In this document: piece by piece, positions 13,998 through 23,626 of the stretch
Numbering within the stretch: the stretch's first letter is position 1
Layout of the letters: every line of letters begins with the position of its first letter
Source of the DNA: Hymenobacter nivis
Lineage (GTDB): Bacteria > Bacteroidota > Bacteroidia > Cytophagales > Hymenobacteraceae
Assembly (NCBI RefSeq): GCF_003149515.1
Contig: NZ_CP029145.1
Coordinates: forward strand, 434,001-498,000
Direction of reading: 5' to 3'
DNA length: 64,000 nt
Program-made: the position numbers and the translations under genes
The notes under the pieces: generated by a model
Databases searched by the model: none
Seen by the model: only the letters and a program-made list of their open reading frames with translations
What the model was told of the DNA's origin: nothing

Positions 13998-16508
13998 TTA
14001 AAACCGCAGGTTCAGGCCGCCGCCGCCACCGAAGCGGTTGTCGTAGCTACCCATCAGCGAGAAGTTGCGCGAGAGCAGGTATTCGGCCCCGGTACGCCAG
14101 ACGACTTCTTTCTCAAAGCGGCGGTTATTGTCCAGCGTATTCACCCACCCAAAGTCGGCCTGGTATTCATAATAGCCAGATACGAGTAGCCGCGGAAACA
14201 CCATAATTCTCCGGCCCAGGCTCAGGCGGGGGCGCAGCTGGTTATCGATGCGGGCATCGAGGCTGAACAGATAGGGCGTCAGGAAGCGGACCCCGACCAC
14301 GGCCTTGGCATCGGTTTTGGTTACCATCCGGCCCGCTGTTCCCAGCTCGGTGAGCGGGGCGGGCAGCCGCTGCCGGAAGTTCTCCACGTTCACGCCCCCG
14401 AACACGCGGAAGTAGTCGTAGAGGTAGCGCTCGTAGGTAACCTCCGATTCCATGTTGCGGTTCCAACCGTTCTCCACGCTCAGGTTGAACTGATTGCGGA
14501 TGTTGGACGACACCAGGTTCAGCGAGCTCATGTGCGAGGCCACGCCGAGGCGACCCCAGGTGTAATACCTGTCGGTTTCGTGCACCAGCGTGCTCACCGG
14601 GTAGCCTTTCAGACGCGGGTCGCGGGGCGTATCGTAGCTCACAACGCGGCCCATCCCGCTCACCAGGTGGTAGAGGACGTGGCAGTGCAGAAACCAGTCG
14701 CCCGACTCGTTGCCCAGCACCTCGATAACGACCTGCTTCATGGGCGGCACGTCCACCGTGTGCTTCAGGGGCGAGTATTCGCCGTTGGCGTTGATGACCC
14801 GAAAAAAGTGCCCGTGCAGATGCATAGGGTGGTGCATCATCGTCAGGTTGTTGTAGGTGATGCGCGTAATCTGGTTGACCCGAATGGGGATTTCATCCGC
14901 CTCCGACAGGGGCACGCCGTTCATGCTCCAGATGTAGCGCTGCATGTTGCCGGTGAGATTAAGCAGGACATTACGCACGGGCAGGGTGTCGGCGTAGGCC
15001 GTTTTCTGCGTAGCCCGCAAGTAATCGTAGTTGTACTCGGCGAACATATCCATGCCGCCCATCTTCATCCCGGCCATCGGCTTATCGGCGCCCATTTTCA
15101 TACCGGCCATTGGCTTATCGGCTCCCATTTTCATACCGCTCATCGGCATATCGGGCCCGGCATGGGCCGTGTCGGCGGGCATTTTCATGCCATCCATCTT
15201 CATGCCATCCATCTTCTTCATACCGTCCATCTTCATGCCGGCCATGGCTGGCTTGGGTTGCGCGGGCTGGTCGTTCATCTTCTTGCCACCCATCTTGTCG
15301 CTGCCGCCCATGTCCATCCCGGCCATCGGCTTATCGCCACCCATTTTCATACCGCCCATTTTTCCATCTTTCCCCGACTTACCCATCTGCATCCCCCAGT
15401 TGGCTTTTATCTGCTCGGGGTCGACGTGGTGGGGGCGAAACCTGAGCGCGGGCGCGCCCATGCGCATGTCCATTTTGGCCATCTGCTGCATGAGCGCGAT
15501 TTTGTCAGGCCGGAGCAGCACCGGAGCGGCCAATACTAGTCCCGTGCCCAGGTAAGCCGAAGTAGTGCCGGAGCCGTCCTGCGCCGTGGCCCGAAGCTCG
15601 AGCTTGCCGGTGGGCGGAATTGTGACCAGGTAATCGTAGGTTTCGGCCACGGCAATGAAGGTTTTGTTGTGCTTCACCGGCACCACTTCCTGCCCGTCGG
15701 CCGCCACCAGCAGCGGGTCTTCGCCCCCGAACGTCATCCAGAACTGCGTCGACGTCGCCCCGTTGATGATGCGCAGGCGTACCTTCTCACCCGGCTTAAA
15801 GTCCGGGTACTGTTGCACCGGCTGGCCGTTCACCAGGAAGGCGTCGTAGTACACGTCAGCGATGCCGAAGCTCTCCATGCGCTGCTTCCAGAAGTTGAGC
15901 TGCGCCCCGAAGGCCCCGCGGGCAATCACGCGGTTGAGCGGCGTGGCCGTCCCTTTGCGGATGTTGTACCACGGGGTGCCCCGCTTAAGGAAGCGCAGGA
16001 CGGTGGCCGGCTTCTGGTTCGTCCAGTCCGAGAGCACGAGCACCAGGTCCTTGTCGTAGGTGAGGCGCTCGTGCTTGGGCTCGATAACGATGGAGCCGTA
16101 CACGCCGCTCTGCTCCTGCAGCAGGGTGTGCGAGTGATACCAGTAGGTGCCGGACTGCTTGAGCGGAAACGCATACTTCTGCACCTGCCCCGGCTCGATG
16201 GGCGGCGTATTGAGGTAGGGTACGCCATCGTAAAAGTTAGGTGCCAGGACCCCGTGCCAGTGCACCGACGTTGCCACGTTCATTTCATTCTTGACGTAAA
16301 TGATGGCGTAGTCGCCCTCTTTGAACCGAATAGTAGGCCCGGGAATACCGCCGTTGACGGTCATGCCCAGCACAGTTTTACCGGCCTTCACCACCGGCTC
16401 CTGCCGCAGAGTCAGGTGATAAATGGTCGTATCCGTCTGGGCCCAGGCCGGCCGCACCGTGAGCAGCAGAATTAGTAGCGGAAAAAAGAATAATGTATTA
16501 ACTCTCAT
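13998..16508 (-). CDS. copA: Multicopper oxidase fused to a CopB-like outer membrane barrel
   Basis: An 836-residue protein with a signal peptide (1-23). Residues 25-330 and 500-640 form a CopA/CueO-type multicopper oxidase: copper ligands are visible as HWHG (83-86), WYHSH (123-127), HPMHLHGHFF (560-569) and HCHVLYHLVSGM (608-619). Residues 342-488 are a Met-rich insert with repeats of MAGMKMGADKP type, typical of Cu(I)-binding periplasmic oxidases. Residues about 645-836 continue as a beta-barrel-like region resembling CopB (YYTWGRLGVASHMSSLN, ending GGGGGLNLRF), normally a separate protein. It should oxidise Cu(I) in the periplasm while anchored in the outer membrane. 'copA' here means the Pseudomonas-type oxidase, not the ATPase. 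Confidence 0.88.
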   Translation of the reverse strand: MRVNTLFFFPLLILLLTVRPAWAQTDTTIYHLTLRQEPVVKAGKTVLGMTVNGGIPGPTIRFKEGDYAIIYVKNEMNVATSVHWHGVLAPNFYDGVPYLNTPPIEPGQVQKYAFPLKQSGTYWYHSHTLLQEQSGVYGSIVIEPKHERLTYDKDLVLVLSDWTNQKPATVLRFLKRGTPWYNIRKGTATPLNRVIARGAFGAQLNFWKQRMESFGIADVYYDAFLVNGQPVQQYPDFKPGEKVRLRIINGATSTQFWMTFGGEDPLLVAADGQEVVPVKHNKTFIAVAETYDYLVTIPPTGKLELRATAQDGSGTTSAYLGTGLVLAAPVLLRPDKIALMQQMAKMDMRMGAPALRFRPHHVDPEQIKANWGMQMGKSGKDGKMGGMKMGGDKPMAGMDMGGSDKMGGKKMNDQPAQPKPAMAGMKMDGMKKMDGMKMDGMKMPADTAHAGPDMPMSGMKMGADKPMAGMKMGADKPMAGMKMGGMDMFAEYNYDYLRATQKTAYADTLPVRNVLLNLTGNMQRYIWSMNGVPLSEADEIPIRVNQITRITYNNLTMMHHPMHLHGHFFRVINANGEYSPLKHTVDVPPMKQVVIEVLGNESGDWFLHCHVLYHLVSGMGRVVSYDTPRDPRLKGYPVSTLVHETDRYYTWGRLGVASHMSSLNLVSSNIRNQFNLSVENGWNRNMESEVTYERYLYDYFRVFGGVNVENFRQRLPAPLTELGTAGRMVTKTDAKAVVGVRFLTPYLFSLDARIDNQLRPRLSLGRRIMVFPRLLVSGYYEYQADFGWVNTLDNNRRFEKEVVWRTGAEYLLSRNFSLMGSYDNRFGGGGGLNLRF

Positions 16509-17959: not shown

Positions 17960-18292
17960 TTAGGCAGCCAGACCTGCCCGGCAGGCTTCTTCGCAGCGGC
18001 GGCAGGCCGCGGCGCACTCCTGGCAGTGCTGCATGTGGGTATGCTGGGCGCACTCGTCGCCGCAGGCTTTGCAGATTTCGGCACACTCTTTCAGCAGATG
18101 CGCAGCGTGCGCAGAGCCGCGAGCTACGAAGCGGGCTGTGAGGGCACAGATGTCGGCACAGTCCCGGTCGAGGCTGATGCAGCCAACCATCATTTTTACA
18201 TCGTTTTCTTGCAAGCAGGCGGTGGCGCAATGTTCGCAGGCGGCAACGCAGGCGTTGAGGGCGTCGAGCAGGGATTGATTTTGGGTAGGCAT
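17960..18292 (-). CDS. csp: Four-helix bundle copper-storage protein (Csp/DUF326 type)
   Basis: A 110-residue protein with 16 cysteines, spaced as CxxxC and CxxC along predicted helices (ACVAACEHCATAC, CAEICKACGDEC, CQECAAACRRCEEAC). This is the pattern of Csp proteins, which hold many Cu(I) ions inside a tetrameric four-helix bundle. No signal peptide is visible, so it resembles the cytosolic Csp3 branch and should buffer cytoplasmic copper. The gene lies 77 bases downstream of the HMA-AraC regulator and points the same way, inside the copper island. Confidence 0.9.
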   Translation of the reverse strand: MPTQNQSLLDALNACVAACEHCATACLQENDVKMMVGCISLDRDCADICALTARFVARGSAHAAHLLKECAEICKACGDECAQHTHMQHCQECAAACRRCEEACRAGLAA

Positions 18293-18369
18293 GGGAAGAG
18301 AAGTTAGCGGTTGATAGTTGCTTCTAGTATACCTGCCCCCTACCCACCCGGTTCTACGTTATTTGTCCG

Positions 18370-18996
18370 TCAGCTTGCACTATTTGGTAACTCCGCATCC
18401 AGAGCGGCCGCTTCAGCGGTGGAAAGTAGCTGCTGCCGATAAGCGGACGGGGCGCACTGCGCAAACCGCCGAAACTGCCCGGAAAAGTGCGCCAGGCTAC
18501 CGTAGCCCAGTAGCCGAGCAAGACGGCCGATGCCCAGCGGGGAAGTTCCCAGCAGCTCCTGCGCGTAAGTCAGCCGCTGGTGCGTGATGTAACTGAGTAG
18601 GCTCTCGTGGCCAGGCAGCCGGGCGAACAGGCTGTGCAACTGGCGCGTACTTACGCCCACCTCCTGCGCCAGCGTGGAGATAAAGTCGTGGTGCCGGAGC
18701 GTATCGGGGCGACGCAGTAACTCGTTGACCAGCTGCTTCACCTGCGCGGCCAGCACGTACTGCGGGTTTTCCAGCAGGGCAAAGCCAGCCGCCGCCAGCC
18801 CGGCCCGGATGCGCACCCAATCCAGCGCCTGGGCCGGGCCAGCTACGGTAGCCGCCCCCAGGCGCACGGCGAGTACCCGCAGCCCCAGGCTTTCTAATTC
18901 ACGCCGCACGACGCGAATACCGCGCGAGCAAACCATGTGCTTAATGTATAGCACACAGCGGCCACTGTCGGGCGTGAGGGAATAGTCAAAAGACAT
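18370..18996 (-). CDS. HMA-like domain fused to AraC-type DNA-binding domain (degenerate metal motif)
   Basis: A 208-residue protein. Residues about 13-80 resemble the ferredoxin-like HMA metal-binding fold (LYIKHMVC at 16-23, IRVVRRELESLGL, then GLAAAGFALLEN), and residues about 100-195 are an AraC/XylS helix-turn-helix pair (LTYAQELLGTSPLGIGRLAR, LLGYGSLAHFSGQFRRF). The related protein at 22853-23488 has CPQC in the metal loop; here it reads CSRG, so the second Cys is lost and Cu(I) binding should be weak or absent. It probably regulates the adjacent csp or copper genes; that role is inferred from position. Confidence 0.8.
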   Translation of the reverse strand: MSFDYSLTPDSGRCVLYIKHMVCSRGIRVVRRELESLGLRVLAVRLGAATVAGPAQALDWVRIRAGLAAAGFALLENPQYVLAAQVKQLVNELLRRPDTLRHHDFISTLAQEVGVSTRQLHSLFARLPGHESLLSYITHQRLTYAQELLGTSPLGIGRLARLLGYGSLAHFSGQFRRFAQCAPSAYRQQLLSTAEAAALDAELPNSAS

Positions 18997-19053
18997 AATT
19001 GATTTTTAGGGGAGAGCGGCACCGGATTCCGGCCGGCGGGGAGGCATCGAGGC

Positions 19054-19260
19054 TTACTTCACCGCAGCCGCGCGGGCATTGGGCGGTAAAAACAGCGCCT
19101 GCCATGGCTGCCCGATCATGAAGCCTACGGCGACAGCCAACGCGGCGTAGCGCAGGCCTGACAGCGCTTCCTTGTTGGGGAGGGAAAACCCAGAAAGTGT
19201 GAGGAAGTGGGCGTGGTCAGGCCACGTCAATGAGCAAACGAAAAAGCCCGCCCCGGCCAT
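19054..19260 (-). CDS. Possible small membrane protein
   Basis: A 68-residue frame with one hydrophobic segment (LRYAALAVAVGFMIGQPWQALFL) and a short basic tail. It lies between the HMA-AraC regulator and the His/Cys-rich secreted protein, in the same direction. The start is uncertain and the first 25 residues look less protein-like. No family recognised. Confidence 0.4.
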   Translation of the reverse strand: MAGAGFFVCSLTWPDHAHFLTLSGFSLPNKEALSGLRYAALAVAVGFMIGQPWQALFLPPNARAAAVK

Positions 19261-19301
19261 AGCGTAGCTATGCCGGCGCGAGCCTTAGCGCGTCAGAAAA
19301 A

Positions 19302-19778
19302 TCAGACAGTCAGCGACTGAACGAAAATGCGGATGTCGGGTATTTTAGGCTTTAAGCGCCGGGGTGGCACTAACGTAACCGCCTGGGTAAGGTCCCACTG
19401 GCCGGCCTGGGGACGGAAGTAAAACGCAACAGACGCCGGCAACATAGCTGGGGTAGGCACAATCAACTGCTTCTGCACCGGCGAAGTCAGCGACGAAAGC
19501 AACGAGGCCGACTTGTCCTTGCAGCAGTCGTGGCTGGTGGTCGACCTCGATGAATGGCCCTTACGCTTGCCGGGGTGTTCCGCCTGGTCTCCGTGACCGT
19601 GACAGCCCGGATGCGCAGGCATTTCGGCGGCTTCATGGTGCGCCAGGCCCGCCGCGTACGGGGCCACCACCACCGGGTTTACCGTGGCGCACCAGCACTG
19701 CCCCACGAACACGTTGACGAAGACGAGCAGGAAGCTCGTCGCCAGCAAACGGCGAAAGGGGAACAGGATACGGAACAT
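19302..19778 (-). CDS. His/Cys-rich secreted protein of the copper island
   Basis: About 158 residues from ATG 19778, with a signal peptide (LLATSFLLVFVNVFVGQCWC). The mature chain has clustered potential metal ligands: HHEAAEMPAHPGCHGHGDQAEH and HDCCKDK, then PP and a C-terminal KIPDIRIFVQSL. This pattern resembles the small Bacteroidota family described by HYC, CC and PP motifs, which often accompanies heavy-metal genes; I assign that with moderate confidence. It diverges from copA (ATPase), about 420 bases away, so both promoters lie in this gap. A role in periplasmic copper binding is inferred. Confidence 0.65.
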   Translation of the reverse strand: MFRILFPFRRLLATSFLLVFVNVFVGQCWCATVNPVVVAPYAAGLAHHEAAEMPAHPGCHGHGDQAEHPGKRKGHSSRSTTSHDCCKDKSASLLSSLTSPVQKQLIVPTPAMLPASVAFYFRPQAGQWDLTQAVTLVPPRRLKPKIPDIRIFVQSLTV

Positions 19779-19974
19779 AACGGGCACTAAGCAACCGCGA
19801 AAACAGACTTATCCCCGGTAAGGAGTGGGACTGATCAGTTAACTGCAAAGCCTGCAAAGGGTTTACGCCCTGCCCCCGGAGGAAACCAGCCGCAGGAAAA
19901 TACGGCACTGAGTAGCATTTCAGGCTGTTCCGCAAGTGCAATGGGCTGTTACCAAAAACTATTCGTTGTCGGGG

Positions 19975-20008
19975 TTTTGTAAGTACGAAGCCAGATTTTA
20001 TAAACTTG
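19975..20008 (+). promoter_or_regulatory. Candidate Bacteroidota promoter for the copA ATPase operon
   Basis: TTTTG (19975-19979) and TATAAACTTG (19999-20008) are spaced 19 bases apart and resemble the -33 TTTG and -7 TAnnTTTG boxes of Bacteroidota housekeeping sigma factor. It would leave a leader of about 180 bases before the ATPase start. The rest of the 19788-20198 gap holds no gene. Confidence 0.4.
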
Positions 20009-20198
20009 TATGAGCGGGCAACGGTAAACAAACCGGAATTTAATTGGCCTCGAACGGCGGTATTGTCCGTCAAATTATGCAATTCTGCGGCGGTATTCAG
20101 TACCAATTTCGCTGGGCGAGCGTCGTTTCTTTGTAGAGTGGCTGCGGGCTTCCTCTTCTGAGTAGCCGTGCCCGGCAACCACATAGTAACCTGCTGTA

Positions 20199-22463
20199 AT
20201 GGAACCAACTACCAAAACCGAAACCCTCGACATCGAAGGCATGACCTGCGCCTCGTGCGCGGCGGCCGTGGAAAAGTCGCTGAGCCGGGCCCCGGGCGTA
20301 CAGAGTGCGCTGGTTAATTTCGCCACCGAAAAAGCCACCGTACAGTACCTGCCCGGCCAGGCCAGCCCGGCCACCCTGAAGGAGGCCGTCGTCAATGCTG
20401 GCTACAGCGTGACCGAGCGCCCCCCCGATACCAGCGCGGCCGAGCGTAGCGCCGAAACCGACCGCCAGAAAGCCCTGGCCTACCAGAAGCTCAAGCGCCG
20501 CTTCTGGGTGGCCGTGGGCCTGGTCGTTGTCATCATGCCGCTGAGCATGCTGATGCTCTGGCCCGCAATGATGCAGCGTGTGAATGTGCAGTGGCTCAAC
20601 TACCTGCTGCTGCTGCTGACGCTACCCGTGCTGGGCTACAGCGGGCGCGAATTCTACGTGTCGGCCTGGAATGGCTTCAAGCACCGATCGGCTAACATGG
20701 ACACGCTCATTGCCGTAGGCACCGGCGCAGCGTTTTTCTACAGCCTGGCGGCCACCGTGGTGCCCGGCTTTTTCACTAGCCGGGGCCTGATGCCCGAGGT
20801 GTATTACGACACCACGGCCACAATCATTGCCCTGATTCTGCTGGGCAAGGTGATGGAACTGCGCGCCAAAACCCAGACTTCGGCCGCCATGCGCAGCCTC
20901 ATCGGCTTGCAAGCCAAAACGGCCCGCGTGGTGCGCCCCGGTGGTGCGGAAGTCGATGTGCCCATTGAGCAGGTGCAGCTTGGCGACATCGTGGTGGTGC
21001 GCCCCGGCGAAAAGGTGGCCACCGACGGCCGCATCACCGAAGGCCAGTCGTCGCTCAACGAAGCCATGCTCACCGGCGAAAGCCTACCCGTGGAGAAGCA
21101 AACCGGTGACTCAGTGTTCGGGGCTACCCTCAATAAAACCGGCTCATTCCGCTTCGAAGTAACCAAAGTGGGAGCCGACACCATGCTGTCCCAGATTGTG
21201 AAGCTGGTGGAAGACGCCCAGGGCAGCCGCGCCCCCATTCAGCGGCTGGCCGACAAAGTCAGCGCCATCTTCGTGCCCACGGTGGTGGTCATTGCCATTC
21301 TGACGTTCGTACTCTGGTTTGATTTGGCCCCGGTGGATACGCGTTTGCCACTGGCCCTAGTCAACTTTGTGGCCGTGCTCATCATTGCCTGTCCCTGCGC
21401 GCTGGGGCTGGCCACGCCCACGGCCATCATGGTTAGCACCGGCAAGGGTGCCGAGCACGGGGTGCTGATTCGCAACGCCGAAGCGCTCGAAAAAGCCTAC
21501 CAGGTAAACACCGTGCTGCTGGACAAAACCGGCACCATTACCAAAGGCGAACCGGCCGTAACGGACTTCGTGGCCCCCGGCCAGGACGGCCCGCGCCTGT
21601 TACAACTAGTGGCCGCCGTGGAGCGGCAAAGCGAGCACCCGCTGGCCGAGGCCGTGGTGCGCCATGCCGACGACCAGGGCGCAGATAAGCTGACGGCCAC
21701 CGGCTTCCGGGCCGTGGAGGGCAAGGGCGCGGCGGCCACCGTGGACGGTCAGGCCGTACTCATCGGCAACCGCCGCCTGCTCACCGACGAGGGCGTTACC
21801 CTATCGCCCGAGCTGACAGCCCAAGCCGAGCAGCTGCTGAGCCAGGCCAAAACCTTGCTCTACGTGGCTGTAGCCGGGCAGGCCGTGGGCCTGGTGGGCG
21901 TTGCCGACACGGTGCGCGATACCTCGGTTGCTGCTATTAAAAAGCTGCAGGCCCTGGGCATTGAAGTGGTGATGATGACGGGTGACAACCCCCAGACCGC
22001 CGCCCAGGTGGCGGGCCAGGTGGGCATCACGCGCTACTTTGCCGAGGTGCTCCCGGCCGACAAGGCCGGCAAGGTGAAGGAGCTACAAGGTGAGGGCCGC
22101 ATCGTGGCGATGGTCGGCGACGGTATTAACGATGCGCCCGCGCTGGCCCAGGCCGACATTGGCCTGGCCATTGGCTCGGGTACCGACGTGGCGATGGAAG
22201 CGGCCGGCATCACGCTCATGCGCTCCGACCTGAACGGGGTGGTAACGGCCATTGAGCTGAGCCGCCAAACCATCCGCACCATCAAACAGAACCTGTTTTT
22301 TGCCTTCGTCTACAACACCCTGGGCATTCCCATCGCGGCCGGTTTGCTCTACCCGTTCTTTGGCATCCTGCTCTCGCCCATGTTAGCGGCCGGAGCCATG
22401 GCCCTCAGCTCGGTATCGGTGCTGACCAACTCGCTGCGCCTGCGCTCTTTCGACAACCACTAA
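20199..22463 (+). CDS. copA: Copper-exporting P1B-type ATPase
   Basis: A 754-residue Cu(I) pump that moves copper from cytoplasm to periplasm. It has one N-terminal HMA domain with MTCASC (Cys17 and Cys20), eight membrane segments, the actuator motif TGES, the membrane copper site CPC (Cys398-Cys400), the phosphorylation site DKTGTIT (Asp442), the HPLAEA nucleotide-domain motif and [10 protein letters not shown]. All key residues are intact and length is normal. It is the first gene of a plus-strand operon with the cupredoxin (12 bases later) and the HMA-AraC regulator. Confidence 0.96.
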
Positions 22464-22475
22464 TCGTTGCTACCC

Positions 22476-22853
22476 ATGGATACGACCGCCATCATTGTTA
22501 CCATAGTCGGCCTGGGCCTGGTTGCCTTCGTGCTGTGGTACTTCTTCTTTTCGGCCCGCCAGGCGGCCAGCGCCGTTTCCTCCTCAAGCGGCGTGCAGGA
22601 AGTAGCCATCACTGTGAAGGGAGGCTACTCGCCCGACATCATCGAAGTAGAAAAAGGCAAGCCCGTACAACTGAGCTTTTACCGCAACGAGGAAAACAGC
22701 TGCTCGGAGGAGTTGCTCATGCCCGATTTCAGCATCCGCCGCGACCTGCCAGCCTTCAAAACGACGCTGGTAGAGCTGCTGCCCGAAAAGGCCGGCACTT
22801 TCCCGTTCACCTGCGGCATGGGCATGCTACGGGGTAGTTTGGTGGTGAAATAA
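22476..22853 (+). CDS. Membrane-anchored cupredoxin-domain protein
   Basis: A 125-residue protein starting at ATG 22476, 12 bases after copA. One N-terminal membrane helix (residues 4-25) is followed by a cupredoxin-type beta-sandwich (VQEVAITVKGGYSPDIIEVEKG, FYRNEENSCSEELLMPDF, FPFTCGMGMLRGSLVVK). Candidate copper ligands are Cys in NSCSEE and Cys/Met in FTCGMGM. It probably receives or holds copper on the periplasmic side next to CopA. Its stop codon overlaps the next start (TAATG). Confidence 0.85.
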   Translation: MDTTAIIVTIVGLGLVAFVLWYFFFSARQAASAVSSSSGVQEVAITVKGGYSPDIIEVEKGKPVQLSFYRNEENSCSEELLMPDFSIRRDLPAFKTTLVELLPEKAGTFPFTCGMGMLRGSLVVK

Positions 22854-23488
22854 TGACGCATCCCATGAAAGCCGACGTCAGCATTGCCCACGTCCTGCCG
22901 CCGCCGGGCTCGCACCGGCTGCTGGTTAAGAACATGGTCTGCCCCCAGTGCATCCGGGTGGTGGGCGAAGACCTTGCGGCCCTGGGCCTGCAGGTGCACC
23001 GCGTAGCGCTGGGCGAGGCCGACGTATCGACGCCCGACGGCGCAGCCCCCGACTGGGCCGCCATCCGCAGCCGCTTGCAGGGTGCTGGTTTTGAACTGCT
23101 GGAAGACGCGCGCGACCAGCTGGTGGACCGCATCAAAACCCTGCTGGTCGCGCTGATTCACTACCCCCCGCCCGGCCCGCGCCTGCTCAACTACTCCGAT
23201 TATCTGGTTGAGCACCTGGAGAAGGACTACCACTACCTCTCCCACTTGTTCTCCGCTTCCGAAGGCCTGACGATTGAAAAGTTCATCATTCGCCAGAAGG
23301 TGGAGCGCGCCAAGGAGTTGATTGGCTACGACGAGTTACCCATTGCTGGCGTGGCCGAACTACTGGGCTACAGCAGCCCGGCCCACCTCTCGCGGCAGTT
23401 CCGGCAGGTGACGGGCCTCACCCCGACCGAGTTTCAGCGCCTGGGGCCCGCCAGCAACGCCCGCCGCAGTCTGGATTCGCTGATTTGA
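22853..23488 (+). CDS. HMA-like domain fused to AraC-type regulator (intact CxxC)
   Basis: A 211-residue protein that overlaps the cupredoxin gene by one base. Residues about 20-90 look like an HMA domain with MVCPQC at 28-33, then IRVVGEDLAALGLQV and LQGAGFELLED. Residues about 125-205 form an AraC helix-turn-helix pair (IIRQKVERAKELIGY, LPIAGVAELLGYSSPAHLSRQFRQVTG). The layout suggests a one-component sensor in which Cu(I) binding to CxxC changes DNA binding of the AraC domain. Its place at the end of the copA operon supports autoregulation. Both sensing and target are inference. Confidence 0.85.
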   Translation: MTHPMKADVSIAHVLPPPGSHRLLVKNMVCPQCIRVVGEDLAALGLQVHRVALGEADVSTPDGAAPDWAAIRSRLQGAGFELLEDARDQLVDRIKTLLVALIHYPPPGPRLLNYSDYLVEHLEKDYHYLSHLFSASEGLTIEKFIIRQKVERAKELIGYDELPIAGVAELLGYSSPAHLSRQFRQVTGLTPTEFQRLGPASNARRSLDSLI

Positions 23489-23626
23489 GCCGGAAACTAT
23501 GCAAGCTGGGGCTTCATTGACATAAATCCTGAATGCAGGTAGTCCGTTTTAGCAATCAAAAAACCATCATCCCTACCTGATTTTATAAAAAAGCTATTCC
23601 GACTTCCCCTGCTGGCTCTGGCGCTA

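Follow-up and report, generated by a model that had tools for sequence, protein, structure and literature searches.

In the window analysed here, i.e., the whole stretch of 64,000 nucleotides, a copper island encodes two regulators that join an N-terminal HMA metal-binding domain to a C-terminal AraC-type DNA-binding domain. One of them, regulator 1, is probably a cytosolic one-component Cu(I)-responsive class II activator of the copA operon, of which it is itself the third gene. Its domain build, its homology to HMA domains, its operon position, the association of its family with P1B ATPases, and the sequence of the predicted operator with its fixed spacing to the −7 box are established. The two regulators and their domains and motifs are the following:

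22853..23488, plus strand: regulator 1, an HMA-AraC protein of 211 residues, third gene of the copA-cupredoxin-regulator operon (alternative start, ATG at 22865)

22910..23107, plus strand: HMA domain of regulator 1 (residues 20-85), beta-alpha-beta-beta-alpha(-beta), from hhalign, PDB profile matches, and AlphaFold2/Foldseek

22940..22951, plus strand: CPQC metal-binding motif of regulator 1 (residues 30-33), from the sequence

23192..23443, plus strand: AraC-type DNA-binding domain of regulator 1 (residues 114-197), from Pfam HTH_18, AlphaFold2 helices, and Foldseek matches to AraC DNA-binding domains

18370..18996, minus strand: regulator 2, an HMA-AraC paralogue of 208 residues, from the ORF, Pfam, alignment to regulator 1, and the model

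18919..18930, minus strand: CSRG in place of CxxC in regulator 2, the second cysteine being gone, from the sequence

Both regulator ORFs are full length at these coordinates. A preliminary description of this DNA had placed the second gene at 18370-18996 without giving a strand; the coordinates stand, and the strand is minus, the plus strand there being full of stops. The two proteins share 36% identity across 196 residues (pairwise alignment, E 3e-24). In both, HTH_18 exceeds the curated Pfam cut-off (E 7e-16 and 2e-15), as does HTH_AraC. The earlier statement that they are unlike CueR, CsoR, CopY, and CusR is borne out, as only AraC-type HTH families rise above the Pfam cut-off and no receiver domain is found in the regulators by Pfam or in the AlphaFold2 model. 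A third full-length HMA-AraC paralogue, with the loop NMVCPRC, is present in the same genome (G000:C1:2976389-2976958; L069 9995-10564), its gene being convergent with another Csp-like gene.

The N-terminal domain of the regulators is homologous to HMA metal-binding domains. The profile-profile comparison that the preliminary description had proposed aligns it with CopA/CopZ-type HMA domains of related genomes over 67 columns, with the CxxC motifs aligned (hhalign, E 3e-8). A deeper alignment gives E 5e-7, and the negative controls (reversed, 20 column-shuffled, and C-domain) fall at E 0.04-0.8. Searched against PDB sequences, the family profile matches the ATP7B HMA (E 7.5e-13), CopZ (about 1e-5), and also CopA, and its top matches are HMA and AraC-type proteins only. 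The AlphaFold2 model of regulator 1 (pLDDT 89.6, pTM 0.84) is matched by Foldseek to CopZ structures at its N-terminal end and to AraC-type domains at its C-terminal end. Regulator 2 gives a similar model and similar structure matches, and in both proteins the C-terminal double helix-turn-helix corresponds to the AraC, MarA, and SoxS domains. The two-part architecture first read from the letters is thus upheld for both proteins by Pfam, hhalign, PDB profile matches, and structure comparison. Among the PDB matches listed for the regulator 1 model, no structure combines HMA and AraC. PF00403, the Pfam HMA profile, stays below threshold in both regulators and in the whole-genome search; since this profile misses the domain, its silence is not counted against HMA identity.

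The metal loop distinguishes the two paralogues. In regulator 1 it reads MVCPQC and conforms to MxCxxC, and this is the CPQC that had earlier been reported for one of the two proteins. In regulator 2 it reads MVCSRG and departs from that pattern. CxxG occurs also in related Hymenobacter copies. Regulator 2 and its near orthologues (L055, L056, L059) have in common a cysteine nine residues ahead of the remaining motif cysteine, which the CxxG copies of L034 and L036 lack. Lacking the second cysteine, regulator 2 may be a metal-blind or altered paralogue, and its metal response has probably been lost or changed.

The genes of known type around the regulators are as follows:

20199..22463, plus strand: copA, a P1B-1 Cu(+)-ATPase (HMA, CPC, MxxSS), first gene of the operon, from NCBIfam TIGR01511 (637.7 bits vs a cut-off of 397) and motifs

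22476..22853, plus strand: cupredoxin gene, middle gene of the operon, from Pfam Cupredoxin_1 (E 2e-19), with its start as in the RefSeq orthologue

17960..18292, minus strand: Csp/DUF326 copper-storage-like gene, a likely target, from Pfam DUF326 (E 1.6e-14) and the NCBIfam Csp1 family (E 8e-10, below cut-off)

19302..19787, minus strand: gene of a copL-like small protein, divergent from copA, from NCBIfam CopL_fam (E 2e-4, below cut-off)

13998..16508, minus strand: multicopper oxidase with a Met-rich insert, from Pfam and NCBIfam

The ATG of regulator 1 at 22853 shares one base with the stop of the cupredoxin gene (TAATG), so that the overlap noted previously is present. The RefSeq start of the orthologue in H. 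aerilatus is an ATG 12 nt downstream of the position equivalent to 22853, and for this reason the real start of regulator 1 may be 22865; the gene order is not affected. The closest Hymenobacter relatives keep the order copA-cupredoxin-regulator, and the copL-like gene is syntenic in most of the Hymenobacter islands compared. Many Hymenobacter strains carry the copA-cupredoxin-regulator island on a plasmid (NZ_CP010057, NZ_CP095054, NZ_CP032319, and others), and the copy in the window lies on a single 5-Mb contig with transposase-like ORFs nearby. In the multicopper oxidase, the insert at 14900-15250 on the minus strand is a long Met-rich repeat of the MKMGGDKPMAGMKM type, which probably adds copper-binding capacity. 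An intact CsoR gene was not found in this genome; its one CsoR-family match is a fragment with a stop and without a matching ORF, and was rejected.

The family extends far beyond the window. Regulator matches occur in 150 of 150 Hymenobacteraceae genomes sampled, some of which may cover the AraC part only, and full-length HMA-AraC copies are widespread in Hymenobacteraceae. Relatives are found across Bacteroidota and in MAGs labelled Ignavibacteria, Neomarinimicrobiota, Chlorobi, and Acidobacteria, labels that may be wrong. The search patterns for the family were drawn from a narrower alignment, the wider query A1 being too diverse. A phylum sample in which the motif was not a selection criterion yielded 114 full-length members, 87 with CxxC and 27 without. 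A P1B ATPase lies within 7 kb of 65 of the 87 CxxC members and of 0 of the 27 others, and a Cu(+)-type ATPase within 7 kb of 48 and 0, respectively; these figures do not stand for many independent observations, because Cys loss in the tree is mostly confined to a single side clade, where a few CxxC members, these too lacking ATPase neighbours, are also placed. In a tree-based test of Cys loss and ATPase linkage by independent pairs, the independent events were too few for significance. P1B ATPases are absent within 7 kb of some CxxC members. Where present, the ATPase is nearly always encoded downstream of the regulator and in the same orientation; in many cases a small HMA (CopZ-like) gene separates the two. 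With the HMA homology upheld and this linkage reaching beyond a single island, the proposal of a little-described HMA-AraC class is supported, its Cu(I) sensing being a prediction.

HMA domains dock onto HMA domains, and the N-terminal domain might therefore be a docking module that senses, by contact, how much copper CopZ or the CopA HMA carries, its own copper not being the signal. The small HMA genes often found between regulator and copA would suit this reading. However, both cysteines are invariant in the alignment of 83 CxxC sequences (A3), the CxHC variant of the loop goes with another class of ATPase, and the island genes that were examined in the window do not include a separate one for CopZ. 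The invariant cysteines and the switch of ATPase class point to direct metal coordination, and docking as the source of the signal is considered fairly unlikely.

The CxHC variant itself forms a well-supported clade (NMVCSHC, NMVCEHC; loci L228, L229, L326, L328, L331, L333-L336, L339, L343, L345), in which ATPases of the Zn/Cd type, with the signature SCPCGLVI, or of the SPC type adjoin 11 of 12 members. The CxHC loop possibly reflects a change of metal choice. Elsewhere, some members of the family stand by CPH-type ATPases, HMA-MauE fusions, or ArsP-HMA permeases. These neighbourhoods would agree with a domain that responds to more than one metal, to a thiophilic metal other than copper, or to the oxidation of thiols, with copper genes as no more than its most frequent neighbours. 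For regulator 1 this is unlikely: the neighbours with recognisable function in the window and in the closest orthologues are copper genes, namely those of the P1B-1 ATPase, cupredoxin, Csp-like protein, CopL-like protein, and multicopper oxidase. We infer Cu(I) to be the ligand of regulator 1 and transcription under its control to be copper-dependent.

The DNA sites that the regulators would occupy were first recognisable in aligned Hymenobacter copA promoters, which have in common a block around AAATTATGCAA...ATTnnGTAC that amounts to a direct repeat with a 21-bp period; many of these promoter loci carry two copies of the repeat. The sites in the window are these:

20071..20103, plus strand: putative proximal copA operator, with half-sites AATTATGCAA (20073-20082) and TATTCAGTAC (20094-20103), 21 bp apart

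20126..20133, plus strand: copA −7 promoter box TTTCTTTG (consensus TAnnTTTG)

19971..20003, plus strand: distal operator-like repeat in the region that separates copA from the divergent copL-like gene, with no −7 box at the standard distance

18354..18386, minus strand: putative operator of the Csp-like gene (AATAGTGCAA ... AATAACGTAG), overlapping the 3′ end of regulator 2

18324..18331, minus strand: −7-like box TATACTAG of degenerate sequence, whose distance to the Csp operator is the standard one

The half-site AATNNTRYAA was examined on 125 loci, non-redundant and separate from the discovery set. The form of the half-site had been sharpened from PWM matches in part of these loci, and such matches carry the 21-bp period by construction. 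This same half-site was compared at all spacings from 10 to 40 with at most 1 mismatch, giving 105 pairs at 21 bp vs 2-15 at each of the 30 other spacings. Nearly all of the 21-bp pairs (99/105) are intergenic, at a median of 71 bp ahead of an ORF that is often a P1B ATPase or small HMA gene. The promoter had no part in the selection of these repeats. TTTG, the core of the Bacteroidota −7 box, begins exactly 26 nt past the second half-site in 53 of the 99 held-out sites, and TAnnTTTG is found at offset 22 in 27 of the 99. In 148 whole genomes, repeat plus −7 box gives 83 matches vs 4 for the reversed pattern, present in 29 of 66 genomes with the family vs 4 of 82 without it (p 1e-8). A PWM scan of distant loci exceeds shuffled sequence only modestly, with 24 of 189 loci scoring above the 95% null. 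A raw test of repeat spacing upstream of the regulators was set aside: 21 came out on top and other multiples of three were also raised, since upstream coding sequence contaminates it, and the half-site test was used instead. Judged from these sequence patterns, AATNNTRYAA repeated at exactly 21 bp is the probable operator of the HMA-AraC family, and the regulators are presumed to bind it.

The copA promoter follows the family geometry to the base, with TTTG at 20130, exactly 26 nt past the second half-site. That half-site makes three departures from the family consensus yet is conserved among Hymenobacter, and the proximal operator as a whole is conserved in the Hymenobacter copA promoters compared. 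The Csp operator is the third best operator match in the 64-kb window and is kept in the orthologous loci L054 and L055. The 5-Mb genome holds four exact pattern matches, among them the copA and Csp sites; at one mismatch there are 12, near the control of 7. A weak operator-like repeat also lies directly 3′ of regulator 1 (23493-23525, plus strand), and weak matches occupy the same place in L034 and L036. As a transposase-like region begins at about 23679, a former target gene behind regulator 1 may have been displaced.

CopY and CsoR, which are one-component copper sensors, act as repressors. An apo-protein that blocks the promoter until Cu(I) releases it would follow their example, and the sites do lie near the promoter. 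The half-sites, however, fall at roughly −66 to −36 of the inferred start, beside the −7 box and not over it. A repeat that ends 26 nt before TTTG and adjoins the box occupies the position of an AraC-type class II activator. Direct repeats with a 21-bp period likewise favour activation, as at araI1-I2, where direct-repeat half-sites 21 bp apart stand beside the promoter. Repression is thus quite unlikely. Because the half-site position matches AraC-type class II activation, Cu(I)-dependent activation of the copA operon and the Csp-like gene is favoured, and we infer that regulator 1 activates.

The Cys-less members of the family (SxxC, NxxC, or no motif; L244, L245, L246, L306, L318, L320, L325, L327, L330, L351, with SxxC loci including L226, L230, L236, and L286) keep the same kind of 21-bp repeats, in several copies at some loci. 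Among the genes behind these repeats are those of Dps-type ferritin, BON, cupin, MlaE, and ice-binding-like proteins, which suggests a different regulon under the same type of regulator. With a like operator ahead of non-metal genes, the repeat marks the family and not copper alone. In the CxHC clade, a site of this type was found in 0 of 12 loci, and that clade probably uses another sequence. That the HMA domain is vestigial, the AraC domain answering something unrelated to metal, would be in keeping with the non-metal neighbours of the Cys-less sister clade and with the CSRG of regulator 2, but it is highly improbable given that MVCxxC is among the most conserved parts of the CxxC members and that P1B ATPases are linked to these and not to the Cys-less members.

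In the activation mechanism proposed for regulator 1, the HMA domain would take Cu(I) at the MVCPQC loop, either directly or passed on from another HMA domain, and binding would alter the coupling of this domain to the C-terminal AraC domain. The latter would occupy the pair of half-sites, with its 21-bp spacing, immediately ahead of the promoter and recruit RNA polymerase to the copA-cupredoxin-regulator operon, providing both class II activation and autoregulation. Regulator 1 would also recruit RNA polymerase to the Csp-like gene, and regulator 2 may use the same kind of operator.

Several known systems share parts of this design. AraC/XylS proteins (AraC, MarA/SoxS-type) likewise have a two-HTH domain, and the HMA-AraC regulators would share with them 21-bp direct-repeat half-sites by the promoter, as at araI1-I2, and class II activation; they differ in that an N-terminal cupin stands where the HMA-AraC regulators have the HMA fold, and the promoter of the predicted HMA-AraC targets, unlike theirs, is of the Bacteroidota TAnnTTTG type. 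The HMA domains of CopZ, Atx1, CopA, and ATP7B have the same ferredoxin-like fold with an MxCxxC loop. Compared with HMA metallochaperones and the N-domains of P1B-ATPases, the HMA-AraC domain is fused to a DNA-binding domain and bears the signature NMVCxRC, has GF instead of GY in the last strand, and lies below Pfam HMA detection. CueR, of the MerR family, would be the functional analogue as a one-component Cu(I)-responsive copA activator, but its DNA-binding and sensor domains are unrelated. CsoR and CopY, as is predicted for regulator 1, are cytosolic copper sensors over copA, but they are repressors of other folds. CusRS/CopRS similarly provide copper-responsive control of resistance genes, but they need a membrane kinase and a receiver domain, and HMA-AraC proteins have neither. 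The linkage to Cu(I) export genes expected of a one-component copper sensor is found in the copA/cupredoxin operon of the window and in its orthologues.

A 2023 survey of marine bacteria reported no one-component copper sensors in its Bacteroidota, the copper-system homologues there being two-component and ECF only (PMC10141476), and the HMA-AraC class fits this reported gap. In the flavobacterium Bizionia argentinensis, a genome study from 2024 described CueR and CopY homologues without copper sites and did not mention AraC (PMC11213822). No description of an HMA-AraC copper regulator was found in the open-licence literature searched, and the fusion apparently represents a large undescribed family. 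The one-component copper sensor is a kind already known; the HMA-AraC domain build would be new, as far as that literature goes.

HMA-AraC proteins may well be the main class of cytosolic metal sensors in Bacteroidota and related phyla, one so far unrecognised, in the place that CueR, CsoR, or CopY has elsewhere, with a conserved operator-promoter geometry and with CxRC/CxQC copper, CxHC zinc/cadmium, and Cys-less non-metal branches. A copA-linked family for which both a sensor site and an operator are predicted would fill, in a testable manner, the copper-sensor gap of the Bacteroidota. With the split between CxRC and CxHC, nature offers a test of how this metal-binding loop determines which metal is chosen. 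From the exact distance to TAnnTTTG, one can predict the way in which a class II activator would work with the Bacteroidota promoter.
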